From Anaerolineae bacterium (GTDB taxonomy: Bacteria; Chloroflexota; Anaerolineae; Anaerolineales; Villigracilaceae), in assembly GCA_017303655.1 (NCBI GenBank), contig JAFLCE010000050.1, forward strand, positions 1 to 32,433: a DNA stretch of 32,433 nt, read 5' to 3'. Of the stretch, positions 1,476 to 28,624 are shown one piece after another; within the stretch, counting starts at the first letter, position 1, and each line of letters starts with the position of its first letter. A model generated the notes under the pieces. That model did no database searches, had not been told where the DNA came from, and saw only the letters and a program-made list of their open reading frames with translations. Position numbers and translations under genes: made by a program.

Positions 1476-2036
1476 TTGAATTCCAAGGTAAAAGATTATT
1501 TATTGCTGTTGGGTGTGGCGACTGTGTCGGTCACACTGGATCAGTGGACGAAGTGGTGGGTACGGGAAAATGTTGAGTACGGGGGACAATGGCTGCCGGA
1601 GTGGTTGAGCTGGCTCAGTCCATACGCGCGGATCGTGCATTGGTATAACAGCGGCGCAGCCTTTGGCATCTTTCAGGATGGAAATTTGGTCTTTACGATT
1701 CTGGCGTTCGTGGTCATTGGCGCGATTCTTTATTATTTTCCACGTGTAGAAGACGAAGGCTGGCTACTTAAGTTTGCGATGGGTTTGCAATTGGGCGGCG
1801 CGGTCGGTAACCTGATCGACCGTTTGCTGATGCAAAAAGTGACCGACTTTATTTCGATTGGGATTTTTCCCGTGTTTAATATTGCCGATGCCTCCATTTC
1901 GGTGGGTGTGGCGGTGCTCTTGTTCGATGTCTGGTTGAAAGAGCGGGCTGAGAAGTTGAAAGCAGCAGAAACGGCTGGTGAAACTCCGCTTGAGCCGTTG
2001 AACGATGTAGTACAAGAATCTGTGAAAGAAGGTTAG
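1476..2036 (+). CDS. lspA: Lipoprotein signal peptidase (signal peptidase II), copy 1
   Basis: Aspartyl protease of the cytoplasmic membrane that cleaves signal peptides from diacylglyceryl-modified prolipoproteins. Start is TTG at 1476 with a GAGGTGAG Shine-Dalgarno just upstream; no nearby ATG fits. The protein has 186 residues and the expected four hydrophobic segments. The conserved blocks are DQWTKWW near residue 22, NSGAAFG near 58, GGAVGNLIDR at 107-116 and FNIADASI at 134-141. The catalytic aspartates should be D124 (VTDF) and D138 (NIAD). The C-terminus carries a charged tail of about 30 residues. A second intact copy follows four bases after the stop. Confidence 0.95.
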   Translation: MNSKVKDYLLLLGVATVSVTLDQWTKWWVRENVEYGGQWLPEWLSWLSPYARIVHWYNSGAAFGIFQDGNLVFTILAFVVIGAILYYFPRVEDEGWLLKFAMGLQLGGAVGNLIDRLLMQKVTDFISIGIFPVFNIADASISVGVAVLLFDVWLKERAEKLKAAETAGETPLEPLNDVVQESVKEG

Positions 2037-21440: not shown

Positions 21441-22112
21441 ATGAAGAAGTTTATCCTCGTACTTTTATTGTTGCTTACTGCTTGTGCTCCGGCGCAAGAT
21501 TCACAAGTTGTGTTGCCTGAGTTGTTGCCCACTGCCACCGCGTATATTGATGCCTCTTATCCGACGGCGGCGGCGAATGTCAGTGCGCCTCAGCAAACGG
21601 CTGCCGGGATTAATGTCAACCTGAGCCGTGCATGGATGGATGGCAAAAATGTCAACGCCGATGTTTGCTTTACCCTACCCGATGCGTCGGATTGGTCGAT
21701 CTGGGCTGCGAGTTTGAGCTATAGCGGAATTGTGCTTCAAGAATATGGCACGACGCTTGTCAGTGTACAAGAAGCCGCCAATGGACAGCCCGGGTTGCGT
21801 TGCGATACTCTGACCTTTGTCGTAGCGCCCGATGCTGACCTCACAAACGCCACAATCATCATTGATGCGATTGCTGCGCCGCCGCAACCCAGCGATTATT
21901 GCGATATTTATCTGCCAAAGATCCAGCAAGTTTTGCTTGAACGCGGAACGGGCATTTCTGTGGATTGCGTGGATGTGAACGGCACTTTGACCATGCAGAT
22001 CCTCAGCAAACCGGCAGAGATGTCGCAAGAACAGGCAGAACAACTCGTATACAGTGATGAGTTCTACACGGTGCGTGGTCCGTGGAGTTTCCCCTTCAAT
22101 TTGTCGCAATAA
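21441..22112 (+). CDS. Predicted lipoprotein, uncharacterised
   Basis: A 223-residue secreted protein with a typical lipoprotein signal: MKKFILVLLLLLTAC, lipobox LTAC with C15 as the lipidated residue and Ala at +2. Lgt and LspA encoded elsewhere in this window would process it. The mature part has a Thr/Ala/Pro linker (20-50), then a compact, beta-rich region with four cysteines (near C77, C117, C154 and C175) that could form disulfides. I recognise no catalytic motif. An AAGGAG Shine-Dalgarno lies upstream. The -35 element of the tyrS promoter overlaps its last sense codons. Confidence 0.82.
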   Translation: MKKFILVLLLLLTACAPAQDSQVVLPELLPTATAYIDASYPTAAANVSAPQQTAAGINVNLSRAWMDGKNVNADVCFTLPDASDWSIWAASLSYSGIVLQEYGTTLVSVQEAANGQPGLRCDTLTFVVAPDADLTNATIIIDAIAAPPQPSDYCDIYLPKIQQVLLERGTGISVDCVDVNGTLTMQILSKPAEMSQEQAEQLVYSDEFYTVRGPWSFPFNLSQ

Positions 22113-22129
22113 AATTCCTGATGTATAAT
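22101..22129 (+). promoter_or_regulatory. Sigma70-type promoter of the tyrS leader
   Basis: TTGTCG (22101-22106) and TATAAT (22124-22129) are separated by exactly 17 bases. The -10 is perfect and preceded by TG. Counting the last -10 base as -7 puts +1 at 22136, which is the A of the leader-peptide ATG; a start a few bases earlier is also possible. The -35 lies within the end of the lipoprotein gene. Confidence 0.75.
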
Positions 22130-22135
22130 ATTGAT

Positions 22136-22186
22136 ATGTCAATCAACTTTTTCACCAGCCGCTATTACTATTATTACCTCCTGTAA
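22136..22186 (+). CDS. Tyrosine-rich leader peptide controlling tyrS
   Basis: A 16-codon ORF encoding MSINFFTSRYYYYYLL and ending in TAA at 22184-22186. Five consecutive Tyr codons (TAT TAC TAT TAT TAC) occupy 22163-22177; two Phe codons occur earlier. It lies directly upstream of tyrosyl-tRNA synthetase, with an intrinsic terminator between them, so slow decoding of Tyr codons would report low charged tRNA-Tyr. No Shine-Dalgarno precedes it, and its ATG falls at or within a few bases of the predicted transcription start, suggesting leaderless initiation. Five Tyr codons in a row at precisely this site are very unlikely by chance. The peptide itself probably has no function after synthesis. 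Confidence 0.82.
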   Translation: MSINFFTSRYYYYYLL

Positions 22187-22234
22187 CATATTGCGATGGT
22201 GTGATTTGAACGCGCCCCATCATCGCGGGCGCGT
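22153..22234 (+). promoter_or_regulatory. trp-type attenuator: mutually exclusive pairings upstream of tyrS
   Basis: Three alternative pairings can be drawn by hand. Pairing 1:2 joins CACCA and CGC (22153-22162) to GCG and TGGTG (22193-22201), with the Tyr codons in its loop. Pairing 2:3 (antiterminator) joins GATGGTGTG (22195-22203) to CGCCCCATC (22213-22221), with one mismatch and one G-U pair. Pairing 3:4 is the terminator, 22210-22217 with 22227-22234. A ribosome stalled on Tyr codons would cover segment 1 and release segment 2 to form the antiterminator. One that reaches the stop codon would cover segment 2 and allow termination. Positions fit this model; stability and expression are not shown. 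Confidence 0.72.
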
Positions 22235-22242
22235 TTTTGTTT
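22208..22242 (+). terminator. Attenuation terminator before tyrS
   Basis: ACGCGCCC (22210-22217) pairs perfectly with GGGCGCGT (22227-22234) around a nine-base loop, followed by TTTTGTTT. It sits between the leader peptide and tyrS, about 60 bases before the tyrS start codon, so it can only matter for transcription entering tyrS or leaving the lipoprotein gene. Confidence 0.88.
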
Positions 22243-22302
22243 GCATAGTACCGATGAATATCAAATTACGACCCGAGCAGGGTCTTGCATGAGGAGAAAC
22301 GA

Positions 22303-23514
22303 ATGAACATCGAAGAACAGGTCGAATTATTGATGCAGGGAACCGACTATGGCGATGAAGATCTGCAGAAAGCCATGGCATCGGAACTGCGCGAACGCTT
22401 GAAGATCGCAGAGAAAGAGAATCGTCCGCTACGGGTATATTGCGGTTACGACCCCACATCTACGGACTTGCATTTGGGTCACACGATATCCATGCGCAAA
22501 CTGCGTCAGTTTCAAGACCTGGGTCATGAAGTCACGTTCTTGATCGGGAATTACACGGCTTTGGTGGGGGACCCTTCCGATAAAAACAAGGCGCGCCCGA
22601 TTCTGACTCAGGAGAAGGTTGCCGAGAATGCGTTGACGTATGCCGAGCAAGCTTTCCGCGTCTTGGATAAATCCAAGACCAAGATCCGTTACAACAGTGA
22701 ATGGCTCTCAAAGTTGAACTTGGTTGATCTGATTCGCCTTGGGCAGAATTTCACCGTTCAGCAGTTTTTGGCGCGCGAAAACTTTGCCAAGCGACTCGAT
22801 AAAGGCGAGCCCATCTACCTGCATGAAACTTTCTACGCTTTAATGCAAGGTTATGACGCTGCTGCCATGGAAACCGATATTCAAGTCGGCGGCTCAGATC
22901 AGTTATTCAATATCATCGTAGCTGGGCGTAAACTTCAAGAAGCGCTTGGGCAAAAGCCTCTGGTGGGTATCATTACCGGTATTTTGCCCGGCACCGATGG
23001 CACCCAGAGAATGTCCAAGTCCACGGGCAATATTGTGCCGATCAACTCGGGCGCAGATGATATGTTCGGCAAGTTGATGTCTGTCCCTGATTCAGCGATG
23101 GGTACCTATATGCGTCTCGTCACTCGTTTCAGTCCGCATGAGATCGCGCAGATTGAAAAAGATGTTGCCTCTGGTGCATTACATCCGCGTGATGCTAAGA
23201 TGAAAATGGCGAAGGAAATCGTCAGCATTTTCTACACAGACTTAGAAGCACAGTCCGGACAGGATAATTTCATCAAGATGTTCCAGCAAAAGGAAATCCC
23301 TGACGAAATGCCGGAGTACGAACTGCAATCTGGTCAGACAGTAGTGGATGTGATCCTTGCAGCCAATATGGCAGAAAGTAAAAGCAAGGCACGACAATTG
23401 ATCGACCAGAAAGGCGTACGCTTGGATGGGGAAGTCCTGGAACGTGGTGATGCGCCGTTTCCACATCCTGGGGTGTTGCAAGTTGGGAAGCGACGTTTTC
23501 TACGTGTGAAGTAA
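22303..23514 (+). CDS. tyrS: Tyrosyl-tRNA synthetase
   Basis: Class I synthetase charging tRNA-Tyr. The ATG at 22303 has GAGGAG at ideal spacing; an in-frame TTG 18 bases upstream is rejected. The 403 residues contain the HIGH-type motif HLGHT (57-61), the KMSKS-type loop RMSKST (236-241) and the tyrosine-binding VGGSDQLFNI (195-204). A C-terminal S4 domain, about 340-400, ends in GVLQVGKRRFLRV. The LHLGHTISMRKLRQFQDLGH segment resembles the TyrZ branch of bacterial enzymes. Expression appears to be controlled by the Tyr-codon attenuator upstream. I see no T-box elements. Confidence 0.97.
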   Translation: MNIEEQVELLMQGTDYGDEDLQKAMASELRERLKIAEKENRPLRVYCGYDPTSTDLHLGHTISMRKLRQFQDLGHEVTFLIGNYTALVGDPSDKNKARPILTQEKVAENALTYAEQAFRVLDKSKTKIRYNSEWLSKLNLVDLIRLGQNFTVQQFLARENFAKRLDKGEPIYLHETFYALMQGYDAAAMETDIQVGGSDQLFNIIVAGRKLQEALGQKPLVGIITGILPGTDGTQRMSKSTGNIVPINSGADDMFGKLMSVPDSAMGTYMRLVTRFSPHEIAQIEKDVASGALHPRDAKMKMAKEIVSIFYTDLEAQSGQDNFIKMFQQKEIPDEMPEYELQSGQTVVDVILAANMAESKSKARQLIDQKGVRLDGEVLERGDAPFPHPGVLQVGKRRFLRVK

Positions 23515-23602: not shown

Positions 23603-23605
23603 CAG

Positions 23606-23677
23606 AGGCGTCGACGGGATTTGAACCCGTGAATGAGGGTTTTGCAGACCCTTGCCTTACCACTTGGCCACGACGCC
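23606..23677 (-). tRNA. tRNA-Cys (GCA)
   Basis: A 72-base cloverleaf. Acceptor arm GGCGTCG pairs with CGACGCC, the anticodon loop is CTGCAAA with anticodon GCA, and the T-arm loop is GGTTCAAATCC. The discriminator is U73, as in bacterial tRNA-Cys. CCA is not encoded. It is the last tRNA of a three-gene minus-strand transcript. Confidence 0.97.
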
Positions 23678-23732
23678 ATATAAACAAAAGGATTGCGACC
23701 GAAAGTCTATTTCAATCTGCAATCCTCCAGTT

Positions 23733-23805
<73 letters not shown>

Positions 23806-23829
23806 GTTTTCGACCAACTTGGTCGAGAG

Positions 23830-23902
23830 TGCCGAGACCCAGGATCGAACTGGGGACACCGCGATTTTCAGTCGCGTGCTCTACCAACTGAGCTATCTCG
23901 GC
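23830..23902 (-). tRNA. tRNA-Phe (GAA)
   Basis: A 73-base cloverleaf with acceptor arm GCCGAGA/TCTCGGC, D-arm AGCTCAGTTGGTAGAGC, anticodon loop CTGAAAA with anticodon GAA, T-arm GTTCGATCC and discriminator A73. CCA is not encoded. First tRNA behind the minus-strand promoter at 23933-23961. Confidence 0.97.
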
Positions 23903-24109: not shown

Positions 24110-27100
24110 ATGGCATCTTCTTTGCCCCAAAAAAGCTACGCACGAATTCCCGTAAGTCTCGATTTACCTGATCTGATCGAAGTACAACTTGATTCATTTG
24201 AAAGGCTCAAAAAGGAGGGATTGGGAGACCTTTTCCATGAAGTTTCCCCAATTGAGTCCTATAACAAGGGAATGAAGCTATTCTTCCCAAGCCGCAGCCC
24301 CGAATCACAGCAGTGGGGGCTCAAGTATTGGTTTGGTGACCCCAAGCATACCATTGAAGAATGTGTAGAGCGCGATCTGACTTATGCCAGCCCGCTTTAT
24401 GTTTCCGTTCTCCTTGCCGGTCCAGATGTCCCTGAACCCATCAAACAGGATATCTTCCTGGGCGACTTCCCCGAAATGACCGATAAGGGCACCTACATCG
24501 TCAATGGAACGGAACGCGTCGTCGTCTCGCAGTTGATTCGTTCTCCTGGCGTGTACTTCGAAGCTCCTGCGGATCGTGCTACGGGACGCCTGCTCTCCAT
24601 GGCCAAGCTGATTCCTGACCGTGGAGCTTGGATGGAGTTCGAAACCCGTAAGTCCGACTACATCATCCTCAAATTCAACCGCAAACGCACCGTTCCGATC
24701 ACGGTGTTCTTACGCGCTCTCGCCGCCGTTAGTGACGGCATCAAAGATTCTCCCATCAAGTATGGTACAGACGAGGAAATTCTCTCCCTGTTCAAGGATG
24801 TGGATAATAACCCCGAGCGCATGTTCATTGCTTCTACTATTAAACAGGAACCGGATTGGGACCTGAGCAATCACACCATCGCCGAAGCGGCTTTGATCGA
24901 ATTCTTCAAGAAAATGCGCCCCGGTGACCCAGCTACTCTGGACAACGCTCGCCAATTCCTTGAAGAACAACTTTTTGATCAGCGTCATTATGACCTCGAA
25001 CGTGTGGGGCGTTATAAGCTCAACCAGAAGCTCGACCTGAATATTCCCATCCCGCATCGCACTGTTTCCAAGAGCGATATTCTCCGCTTGCTTCGCCGTA
25101 TGATCCAGATCAACAACGGCTCGGAGCGCTCAGACGATATCGATCACCTTGGCAATCGCCGCGTCAAGACAGTGGGTGAGTTGATCCAGAACAAACTCCG
25201 CATTGGTCTGCGCCGTATGGAACGCGTTATTAAAGAACGCATGTCCATTCGCGATCAGGAACAACTTTCGCCGGTGACCCTCGTCAACATCCGTCCGGTT
25301 GTGGCTGCGTTGCGCGAGTTCTTCGGTTCTTCCCAACTTTCCCAATTCATGGATCAGACCAACCCGTTGGCAGAGTTGCGTCACAAACGCACACTTTCTG
25401 CTCTTGGTCCAGGCGGTCTTCGCCGCGAACGCGCCGGATTCGATGTCCGCGACGTTCATCACTCTCACTACGGACGTATCTGCCCGATCGAAACGCCGGA
25501 AGGTCCAAACATCGGTTTGATCGGTCGTCTTGCGTCGTTCGCTCGTGTGAACGAATACGGCTTCATTGAGACTCCATACCGAAGGGTTTACAAGGCTCTT
25601 CCTTCCGATAGCGAATTGTTTGAAGGTCGCACCCTGCGCGAAGATATTTACGATCCCAAGTCTGAAGAACTGCTCTTCAAATCTGGTACGGAAATCGACT
25701 CCAAGATCGCCAAACGCCTTGCGCGTCTTGATGGTGAGATTGCGATCATCCCGTTCGTTTCTGATGAAATCGTTTATCTTTCCGCAGACGCAGAAGATAA
25801 ATATACGATTGCGCAGGCAAATTCCACACTTACAGAGAAGAAAGAATTCTCCCGCGAACGTATTTCCTGCCGTTACCATTCCGGCTTCATGTTCTCCAAT
25901 GCTGAAAGCTTGGACTTCATGGATGTGGCTCCTCACCAGGTTGTGGGTATTAGCGCTGCGTTGATCCCCTTCCTTGAACATGACGATGCCAACCGTGCGC
26001 TCATGGGTTCGAACATGATGGCGCAAGCGGTTCCCTTGGTGCGCCCTGAAGTTCCGCTCGTCTCTACAGGGATGGAACGCCACGCCGCGATCGACTCCGG
26101 TCAGGTTGTGGTCGCTGAAGCGGACGGGGAAGTGGTCTCTGTAACAGGATCAACCATCACTGTTAAAGAGAAGCGTTCCGGCAATCGAGTTTATCAGCTC
26201 CGCAAATATCAGCGCTCCAATCAGAGCACTTGTATCGATCAGCGTCCTTCCGTTGTAAAGGGACAGTTGATCAAGGCTGGCGATATCATCGCTGACTCGT
26301 CCTCGACCGATAATGGTCAGTTAGCTCTCGGTCAGAACGTCGTCATTGCCTTCCTTTCTTGGGAAGGTGGTAACTTCGAAGATGCTATTCTGCTTTCTGA
26401 ACGACTTGTGCAGGAAGACCGCTTCACTTCTGTCCATATTGAGAAGTATGAAGTCGAAGCCCGTGATACCAAGCTTGGACCCGAAGAGATCACTCGTGAC
26501 ATCCCGAACGTAGGTGACGATGCCATCAAGGACCTTGATGAAAATGGCATTATCCGCATCGGTGCCGAAGTTGGTCCGAACGACATCCTCGTCGGCAAGA
26601 TTACGCCGAAGGGTGAAAAAGAACTTACCCCTGAAGAACGCCTGTTGCGTGCCATCTTCGGTGAAAAGTCTCGCGATGTGAAAGACACCTCTCTGCGCAT
26701 GCCTCATGGTGAACGCGGTAAGGTCGTTGACGTCAAAGTCTTTACCCGCGAAGAGAATTCAGATCTCGCTGCTGGCGTGGATATGATGGTTCGAGTCTCT
26801 GTTGCTCAGCGTCGTAAGATTACTGCGGGCGACAAGATGGCAGGACGCCATGGTAACAAGGGCGTGGTTTCCAAGGTTGTGCCTGTGGAAGATATGCCTT
26901 TCCTTGAAAATGGTATGCCTGTTGATATCATTCTAAATCCGCTTGGTGTTCCTGGTCGTATGAACATCGGTCAGGTGTTGGAAGTCCACCTTGGGTGGGC
27001 AGCCAAGCGTCTCGGGTATCGAGCCGTGACTCCCGTCTTCGATGGTGCCAGTGAAGAGCAGATCGAAGCCGAACTCGCTCGCGCGTGGATCGTCGATCAG

Positions 27101-28009
27101 GCTTGGAAGGAAGCCGGAGTCCGCGCTTGGGAATGGCTTAAAGAACAGGAATACGACCCAACCACAATCGAAGATGACGATGAAGTTCGCCGCCTCTATC
27201 TGGAGGAATGGTTGGACAAGCGTCGCTACGACGTTTACAGTTTGAACGACCAAGCGTACGCGCATCGTGCCACCGCTCGAGAATGGTTGCGCGAAAAGGG
27301 CTATTCTGACCCTGATGAAATTCTGCTTGAAGACCGTCAGGTTGCCCATGATCCCAAGATGGACGACTTGGCGATCACTGCCTGCTTGCGTTTGTGGATG
27401 GAAGTAAATGGCATTACCCGCCGCGTAGCTGAAGATAAAGTCTACGAAACTGCCCAGGAACTTGCTAAAGAAAAGGGCATCCCGCTGCCGATCCTTGGCA
27501 AACAGACTCTACGTGATGGCAAGACCGGTTTGCCGTATGACCAACCTGTCACAGTAGGTGTGATGACCATTCTCAAGCTTCACCACTTGGTGGAAGACAA
27601 GGTTCATGCACGTTCCACGGGTCCTTACAGTTTGGTGACCCAACAACCGCTTGGTGGTAAGGCTCAATTCGGTGGTCAGCGCTTTGGTGAAATGGAAGTG
27701 TGGGCACTGGAAGCTTATGGTGCTGCTCATACCTTGCAGGAAATGCTCACGGTCAAATCGGATGATGTTCAAGGTCGTGTGAATACCTATGAAGCGATTG
27801 TGAAGGGTGACCCGATTGAAGAGCCCAGCATCCCTGCATCTTTCCGGGTGCTCGTGAAAGAATTGCAATCGTTGGGGCTTGCAGTGGAAGCCATCAATGA
27901 AAACGGTGACGTGGTTAAATTCGGAAAGGATGAAGAGAAGACTCATCCACCGAAACACGATACCGGTCTGCTTAGTTTGGGTGAAGGGCAATCCAGAAAA
28001 AAGCAGTAA
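24110..28009 (+). CDS. rpoB: RNA polymerase beta subunit
   Basis: Catalytic subunit of RNA polymerase, 1299 residues, starting at an ATG with AGGAGAG upstream. The rifampicin pocket (405-437) is wild type: [16 protein letters not shown] and [13 protein letters not shown], with D415, H425 and S430 at the main resistance positions, so sensitivity is predicted. The active-site segments [16 protein letters not shown] and [38 protein letters not shown] are intact. Between TPVFDGA (974-980) and [11 protein letters not shown] (from about 1134) there are about 150 residues where B. subtilis and E. coli have about 20: a lineage-type insertion of charged helices. rpoC does not follow, and rplJ/rplL do not precede. 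Confidence 0.97.
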
Positions 28010-28015
28010 ATTCTA

Positions 28016-28044
28016 TTGACTTGATGGGTACAGCATGATAAAAT
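28016..28044 (+). promoter_or_regulatory. Promoter of the rpsL-rpsG-fusA-tuf operon
   Basis: TTGACT (28016-28021) and TAAAAT (28039-28044) are spaced by 17 bases, seven bases after the rpoB stop. Predicted start is near 28050, giving a 5' region of about 157 bases before rpsL. The ribosomal-protein operon can thus be transcribed independently of rpoB; I see no terminator after rpoB. Confidence 0.82.
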
Positions 28045-28066
28045 GTTGTGCCTTTGTCAAGAAAAA

Positions 28067-28092
28067 GGAGCGGCAATTGCTAACCCCGCTCC
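28067..28092 (+). promoter_or_regulatory. Hairpin enclosing ribosome site and start of the small ORF before rpsL
   Basis: GGAGCGG (28067-28073) pairs perfectly with CCGCTCC (28086-28092) around a 12-base loop. The stem contains most of the AAGGAG Shine-Dalgarno and the loop contains the TTG start of the 42-codon ORF. No T-run follows. It could repress translation until opened, or bind a ribosomal protein. Confidence 0.6.
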
Positions 28093-28205
28093 GAGAGAAA
28101 TTGGCAGCTACAGATGAGGCCATCAGGGAACGAATTGATGGTCTCATTTATTGCGAAAAAACAAAAATAAATAATCAATTAGAAGAATTTGTAATCGGAG
28201 GCTGA
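28077..28205 (+). CDS. Small ORF (42 residues) upstream of rpsL, uncharacterised
   Basis: I do not recognise this peptide. Start TTG at 28077 has AAGGAG six bases upstream; the TGA at 28203-28205 ends two bases before the GTG of rpsL, so it would be translationally coupled. It begins [20 protein letters not shown] and continues with a mixed charged segment including YCEK and QLEEFVIGG. The pattern is helical and acidic/basic, unlike random translation. It also carries the rpsL Shine-Dalgarno (GGAGG) in its last codons. It may be a real small protein, a coupling leader for operon control, or a chance frame; the ribosome site and precise junction favour the first two. Confidence 0.55.
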
Positions 28206-28207
28206 TC

Positions 28208-28624
28208 GTGCCGACAGTAAATCAAATGGTCCGCAAGGGCCGCAAAGATAAAAAATCCAAAAGCAAGGCGCCTGCTCTGCAGTTCACATTGAACAGCTTT
28301 AAGCAACGCCGGTTCCGTCAGGATAAGGGTGCTCCTCAGAAGCGCGGTGTTTGTACCGTGGTTCGCACCATGACCCCTAAGAAGCCAAACTCTGCGCTTC
28401 GTAAGATTGCTCGTGTGCGTTTGAGCAATGGTATCGAAGTGACGGCGTACATTCCGGGTGAGGGTCATCAGTTGCAAGAGCACTCCGTGGTGCTTGTCCG
28501 TGGTGGTCGTGTTAAGGACCTTCCGGGCGTGCGTTACCACATTGTGCGTGGCACCCTCGACACCACCGGTGTGGCCAATCGTAAGCAGGGCCGCTCAAAG
28601 TACGGCGCGAAGCGTCCCAAGTAA
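28208..28624 (+). CDS. rpsL: 30S ribosomal protein S12
   Basis: Decoding-centre protein of the small subunit. The GTG start at 28208 has GGAGG upstream. The 138 residues open with [13 protein letters not shown] and include a segment of about 14 residues, absent from E. coli S12 but typical of the Bacillus-length form, before PQKRGVCT. The streptomycin-relevant lysines are wild type in [11 protein letters not shown] and [10 protein letters not shown]. The C-terminus [10 protein letters not shown] is complete. First recognised gene of the str-type operon. Confidence 0.97.

Follow-up and report, generated by a model that had tools for sequence, protein, structure and literature searches.

The tyrosyl-tRNA synthetase gene (tyrS) of an Anaerolineae genome was found to be preceded by a short ORF containing a run of tyrosine codons and by an intrinsic terminator, and these elements very probably make up a tyrosine-specific, ribosome-mediated transcription attenuator of tyrS. 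The stretch of DNA analyzed (32,433 nucleotides, here called the window) corresponds to contig C119 in a Chloroflexota MAG of 4.6 Mb (Anaerolineae, Villigracilaceae-like), and the named relatives of its TyrRS are mostly MAGs of Anaerolineales and other Chloroflexota. A first-pass annotation had listed a promoter, a 16-codon ORF with five consecutive Tyr codons, a GC-rich terminator, and tyrS; all were present by direct reading (Table 1), with the intrinsic terminator lying between the leader ORF and tyrS. The observation of a leader-terminator arrangement before tyrS is therefore confirmed, and its interpretation as an attenuator appears well supported by the comparisons of related sequences presented below.

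Table 1. Features of the tyrS leader region in window coordinates
Feature	Position	Strand	Remarks
Promoter, TTGTCG-17 nt-TATAAT	22101..22129	+	TTGTCG 22101-22106, TATAAT 22124-22129; direct reading
Leader ORF, 16 codons, MSINFFTSRYYYYYLL	22136..22186 including stop	+	ATG at 22136; probably leaderless
Five Tyr codons in a row, putative sensor	22163..22177	+	Direct reading
Segment 1, CACCAGCCGC	22153..22162	+	Partner by RNAfold is segment 2 (1:2, predicted to favor termination)
Segment 2, GCGATGGTG	22193..22201	+	6 nt past leader stop
Segment 3, CATCATCGC, apical loop of the terminator	22218..22226	+	Partner is segment 2 (2:3, putative antiterminator)
Intrinsic terminator, GC-rich	22210..22238	+	Arms ACGCGCCC 22210-22217 and GGGCGCGT 22227-22234; T-run 22234-22238
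Shine-Dalgarno-like GAGGAG of tyrS	22291..22296	+	Direct reading; 105 nt past leader stop
tyrS, tyrosine--tRNA ligase	22303..23514	+	ATG at 22303; TIGR00234, 352.4 bits

The leader ORF is probably leaderless, since the -10 box ends 6 nt before its ATG, a point absent from the first-pass annotation. In relatives, TATAAT was located 6 to 7 nt before the start codon in 66/66 short leaders, with a classifier that demanded merely TANNNT rather than TATAAT. The genome of the window contains the pattern TATAATN6-7ATG 149 times compared with 37 times for the reversed pattern, and 25 of the first 30 of these 149 sites begin open frames of at least 93 codons; given this excess and these long frames, leaderless starts look normal in this genome. 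No second attenuator was apparent among the same 30 sites. Judging by title, a leaderless attenuator ORF has precedent, as the leaderless polycysteine short ORFs of mycobacteria (Canestrari, 2020) are reportedly amino-acid-responsive attenuators. Those ORFs involve cysteine and are described as acting by translation attenuation (PMC13236596), whereas the tyrS element would use an intrinsic terminator as its switch.

Three mutually exclusive pairings had been proposed for this leader. The coordinates hold for the pairing of 22153-22162 with 22193-22201 (1:2), in which segment 1 of the window precedes the Tyr codons as had been described, and for the terminator stem (22210-22217/22227-22234). 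The antiterminator, however, had been placed at 22195-22203 with 22213-22221, a pairing that contains a mismatch; the unbroken 9-bp helix is formed by 22193-22201 with 22218-22226, making the apical loop of the terminator segment 3, and not mainly its 5' arm. As the two arms directly flank segment 3, which is itself the loop, the full 9-bp 2:3 duplex and the closed hairpin should be mutually incompatible on geometric grounds.

In the mechanism we propose, transcription would start at or beside the leader ATG, and ribosomes would initiate on the leaderless end. With ample Tyr-tRNA, the ribosome would proceed to the stop codon with its leading edge over the start of segment 2, the terminator would form, and tyrS would be off. 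With Tyr-tRNA scarce, the ribosome would stall on the Tyr codons, masking segment 1 and leaving segment 2 free to capture the emerging terminator loop, such that nucleation of the hairpin would be hindered and the polymerase would continue into tyrS. With no ribosome on the leader, the 1:2 pairing would favor termination. The element is in this way predicted to respond to the level of tyrosyl-tRNA.

RNAfold analysis of the window RNA without a ribosome on the Tyr codons gave 22193-22197/22222-22226 plus 22198-22203/22211-22216. When the RNA was folded at successive lengths, occupation of the Tyr codons yielded the antiterminator up to 22232, occupation of the stop codon yielded the terminator (partial by 22230), and the absence of a ribosome yielded 1:2 plus the terminator. 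From 22234 on, the terminator was the favored structure even when the Tyr codons were covered, and since it is the more stable structure at full length under this condition, the switch must be kinetic.

Conservation was assessed in the tyrS upstream regions of 107 family genomes (the window's own included) out of 108 with a match, G069, in which the matching gene ends at a contig edge, being left out; together with named contigs, this gave 138 distinct regions. The strict search sought an ORF whose last 12 codons include one or more Tyr codons, a segment 2 shortly after the stop, and a terminator loop pairing with segment 2. The stop was allowed from -2 to 21 nt before segment 2 with 6 nt preferred, and the leader stop-segment 2 spacings are therefore partly conditioned by the search. 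The 138 regions were classified as 66 short, 21 long, 14 other, and 37 none, corresponding by genome within the family (n = 107) to 59 short, 18 long, 13 other, and 17 none. A lack of conservation in relatives had been named beforehand as evidence against the attenuator; the arrangement was kept before tyrS in 90/107 family genomes, one of them doubtful. Within the genus (n = 25), 24 genomes had the short form and 1 had none. In G044 (L009), the genus genome without the element, a Shine-Dalgarno-like stretch separates the tyrS start from a TATAAT located 26 nt ahead of it.

Some of these class labels need qualification. Among the 18 "long" genomes, 15 have the protein-tail form described below, G091 and G096 really have short leaders, and G011 is doubtful. 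Among individual loci, L164 and L170 are mislabeled as "long" (their leaders are short, with the frame open upstream), and the label is doubtful for L064; all three stay in the 99-locus counts used here, which omit the doubtful L085 and L088. The "none" regions L122, L155, and L171 still carry Tyr leaders by eye, and some "none" regions are short pieces.

The Tyr codons themselves proved to be conserved in relatives, as the first-pass annotation would lead one to expect. Counting from the end of the 66 short leaders, Tyr was found at position -5 in 62, at -4 in 54, and at -6 in 51, while the first half of the peptide was variable. Scanned with a covariance model of the element, 29 of 31 genus genomes had a single match and two had none (with at most 150 candidates scored per genome), and the match was just before tyrS in all 15 of the 29 genomes that were compared (G000, G008, G063, G071, G076, G092, G102, G106, G108, G110, and G115-G119). 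The ribosome's leading edge was set 12 nt past the first base of the A-site codon, an assumed footprint. On this assumption, a ribosome on the last Tyr codon covered no segment 2 base in 98/99 loci, and a ribosome at the stop codon covered at least one such base in 94/99 and at least four in 75/99. Three sense codons lay between the last Tyr and the stop in 75/99 loci.

The specificity of the search was evaluated with the 135 of 138 regions that were at least 400 nt long. The strong form was found in 75/135 real regions, 0/522 windows from other loci, and 0/405 dinucleotide shuffles, and any form in 101/135 tyrS upstream regions compared with 13/522 native control windows and 3/405 dinucleotide shuffles. 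A simple scan of the region showed no excess of promoters (3 versus 2.4 in shuffles) or terminators (3 versus 2.1); it missed the terminator of the window, which has a loop of 9 nt, the scan's loop range being 3 to 8 nt. These controls bear on the possibility that the hairpin merely ends transcription of the lipoprotein-like gene upstream (21441-22112), with the Tyr ORF being a product of chance. That gene is indeed on the same strand and ends approximately 100 nt before the hairpin, but the Tyr ORF is conserved family-wide together with its -10 spacing and the 2:3 pairing, though the N-terminal codons vary, and the strong form was never matched in the control windows, making this explanation highly improbable.

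For the attenuator, compensatory change in the alternative stems had been suggested as a check, and both helices (1:2 and 2:3) were found to covary in relatives, backing the mutually exclusive pairings, with some measures not above shuffles. To score covariation, 42 loci of the main subfamily, out of 47 listed, were aligned with MAFFT (A1), leaving out L040, L079, L126, L137, and L145. For the 2:3 helix, 94.4% of cells were paired (slid versions, at most 54.4%), and the covariation score was above 500/500 shuffles. For the 1:2 helix, formed by the codons after the Tyr run with segment 2, 78.2% of cells were paired (slid versions, at most 61.1%), and 20 cells were changed on both sides versus 8.4 in shuffles, with 0/500 as high. 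A second 1:2 register was 80% paired with a weaker score, 26/500 shuffles being as high. Neither the number of pairs altered on both sides nor that of additional pair types was above shuffles for 2:3 (145 and 424 of 500, respectively), for 1:2 (254 and 353 of 500), or for the second 1:2 register. In alignment columns 12-35-61, 27 rows have C-G-C and 6 have U-A-U, so that one segment 2 change is matched by both partners; the six U-A-U rows, which include close relatives, may represent one event. Unconstrained RNAalifold picked the 2:3 helix, and outside the main subfamily this helix persists with other letters (GTTTTACGAC/GTCGTAAAAC, CTGTGGAG/CTCCACAG, and CGCTGCGG/CCGCAGCG).

At single loci, the real loop was better than shuffled loops at p 0.05 in 74/99 and the post-Tyr segment in just 31/99. 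When partners were swapped between loci, the real partner was among the best 5% in just 22/99 for 2:3 and 16/99 for the post-Tyr pairing. The swap controls were weak, perhaps because the loci share letters, and covariation on the alignment was therefore used. The window's own post-Tyr codons pair poorly (-5.1 kcal/mol). Apart from the apical-loop segment 3 and the probably leaderless start, the design departs from the first description in that in most relatives segment 1 consists of the codons following the Tyr run, whereas in the window it lies before the Tyr codons, and in that one variant has a whole protein whose tail acts as the putative leader.

The leader might alternatively encode a nascent-chain arrest peptide, or translational coupling rather than the terminator might control tyrS, given that a short ORF precedes the gene and that [TSA][HR]P often follows the Tyr run. 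Against these readings, the N-terminal half is not conserved, both Tyr codons are in use (199 TAT and 85 TAC in the short leaders), RNA pairing can explain the conserved end of the leader, and tyrS has a Shine-Dalgarno sequence of its own, well past the leader stop (Table 1). We regard both as very unlikely. Least probable of all is a leader RNA that senses uncharged tRNA-Tyr directly (a T-box or similar), as, despite T-box matches in this genome before valS, leuS, thrS, and serS and reported Tyr T-box control of tyrS in Bacillus (PMC2494555), the T-box model (RF00230) gave no match at or below threshold within 21900-22400, and the distance from the inferred start site to the terminator end is only approximately 100 nt compared with the 219 positions of the model.

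The T-box matches before valS, leuS, thrS, and serS had E values of 1e-12 to 3e-18, all below Rfam's curated score. At pheS, scanned in relatives with the own genome's fragments L274 and L276 left out, a T-box above the curated score was present in four genus relatives (L263, L268, L269, and L271), just below it in L272, and absent from L264. No T-box reached the gathering threshold for trpS (L001 and L003), cysS, proS, or hisS, and for cysS there was none at an E value of 0.01 either. A simple scan before pheS and other synthetase genes returned no convincing codon-run ORF, with T-box matches instead. With four other synthetase genes having T-box matches, the question therefore arises of why tyrS would use the ribosome instead. 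At tyrS, other Rfam families gave nothing at threshold, and the sub-threshold matches to P9, GcvB, betaproteobacterial sRNA, and Atu_C9 were judged to be chance. A pattern for Trp-run leaderless leaders matched in 4/25 genus genomes, and none of the strings looked like a Trp leader by eye.

Several other features of the genome were observed. By eye, a TrpRS-like gene follows a trpE-like gene (L001, G000:C110), and a near-copy of its end occurs on a second contig (L004, G000:C40) before a trpG/trpD-like gene; the second copy may reflect strain mixture. Just downstream of tyrS are three minus-strand tRNA genes (Cys, Gly, and Phe; window 23605-23902), none of them tRNA-Tyr. Farther on, rpoB is followed after approximately 200 nt by an rpsL-like ORF without rpoC between, and the genome's sole RpoC-family match sits on a contig other than that of rpoB (window 24110-28624; G000:C118:28822-30333). 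Two adjoining similar ORFs of 186 and 183 amino acids (window 1476-2036 and 2041-2592) resemble, by eye, tandem copies of lspA (signal peptidase II).

In some genomes without a short leader, the Tyr codons are the last codons of the upstream gene. The encoded protein, here termed bPH-like for its weak likeness to bacterial PH domains (best E value of 0.002, below cut-off), has approximately 165 to 175 residues and, by eye, a hydrophobic N-terminal half. Its gene was found in 32/120 family genomes, none of them in the genus of the window. In 18/30 bPH-like loci, two to three of the last six residues are Tyr, and all 18 are directly before tyrS with no separate leader; the other 12 have one or no Tyr in the last six residues (relatedness uncorrected). 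Among these 12 loci, tyrS is preceded by a separate short Tyr leader in 6 and was not seen on the stretch in 3, and L253, L261, and L262 lie before tyrS with no recognized leader. The strict search was passed by 14 of the 18 Tyr-tail loci and failed by L237, L245, and L246 (tyrS regions L152, L147, and L156, respectively); L238 was not included in it.

On a TyrRS tree of 81 rows, the long form required 4 changes without L064 and 5 with it. Sister lineages on this tree (L030 and L031 versus L048, L049, and L050) have the short leader and the protein-tail form, with wholly different attenuator letters. Our reading is that a native tail, often xYSRx, has been enriched in Tyr where it serves as a sensor. 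We consider it reasonably likely that the Tyr attenuator of Anaerolineae works through a loop-capture antiterminator and that several lineages sense via a Tyr run at the C terminus of an upstream protein, full-length and probably membrane-bound, this run having evolved from a single-Tyr tail. If so, the last codons of this protein would double as an amino-acid gauge for the next gene. The variant resembles the rph-pyrE attenuator of Escherichia coli, in which a full-length upstream gene is the translated leader, but rph-pyrE senses UTP via polymerase pausing and not through a codon run.

Beyond the family, 60 of 65 class-level loci were readable. By eye, different Tyr-rich ORFs precede tyrS in other Anaerolineae families. 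Y-x-Y-x-[SG]-G-L endings before tyrS were seen in L317, L325, L335, L337, L338, and L347. In L333, L343, L345, L348, and L350, a Tyr-containing ORF has a -10-like box near its start. The two kinds together account for 11/58 regions read outside the family. In the Y-x-Y-x-[SG]-G-L ORFs, the last codons look complementary to a segment approximately 40 to 70 nt downstream.

In the trp attenuator of E. coli, segment 3 is mainly the 5' arm of the terminator. The tyrS element differs from the trp/his/pheST type in its Tyr codons, its target gene tyrS, its occurrence in Chloroflexota, its probably leaderless start, and its use of the apical loop as segment 3, while sharing the run of regulatory codons, the alternative 1:2, 2:3, and terminator pairings, and the intrinsic terminator (PMC1262725, PMC2965389). 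Leader-peptide attenuators are reported for trp, his, and pheST and for trpS and leuS of Streptomyces (PMC1262725), as well as for hisS of bacilli (PMC2965389). In the mycobacterial ilvB1 leader, a ribosome at the stop codon is reported to mask approximately 26 nt and so to prevent the antiterminator (PMC13236596). The aroR leader before aroF of Corynebacterium glutamicum contains Tyr and Phe codons and is described as exerting control by ribosome stalling; it differs from the tyrS element in being a Phe-Tyr-Phe leader that is reportedly unaffected by Tyr availability (PMC11802643). In Bacillus subtilis, a Tyr T-box controls tyrS by transcription termination, and T-boxes are reported for the ile synthetase and trp genes of Dehalococcoides (PMC2494555). 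The B. subtilis T-box shares its gene and signal with the element described here but involves direct tRNA binding and no translated leader.

The sensing principle is therefore already known. In the parts of the open-licence PMC literature consulted, we found no Tyr-specific leader-peptide attenuator and none in Chloroflexota, and the amino acid, the phylum, the loop-capture antiterminator, and the protein-tail sensor are new to us. Together, the replacement of all pairing letters between relatives, the geometry of loop capture, and the protein-tail variant offer a natural series on the origin and movement of attenuators, and this series suggests how the regulation of a neighboring gene can shape the C terminus of a protein.
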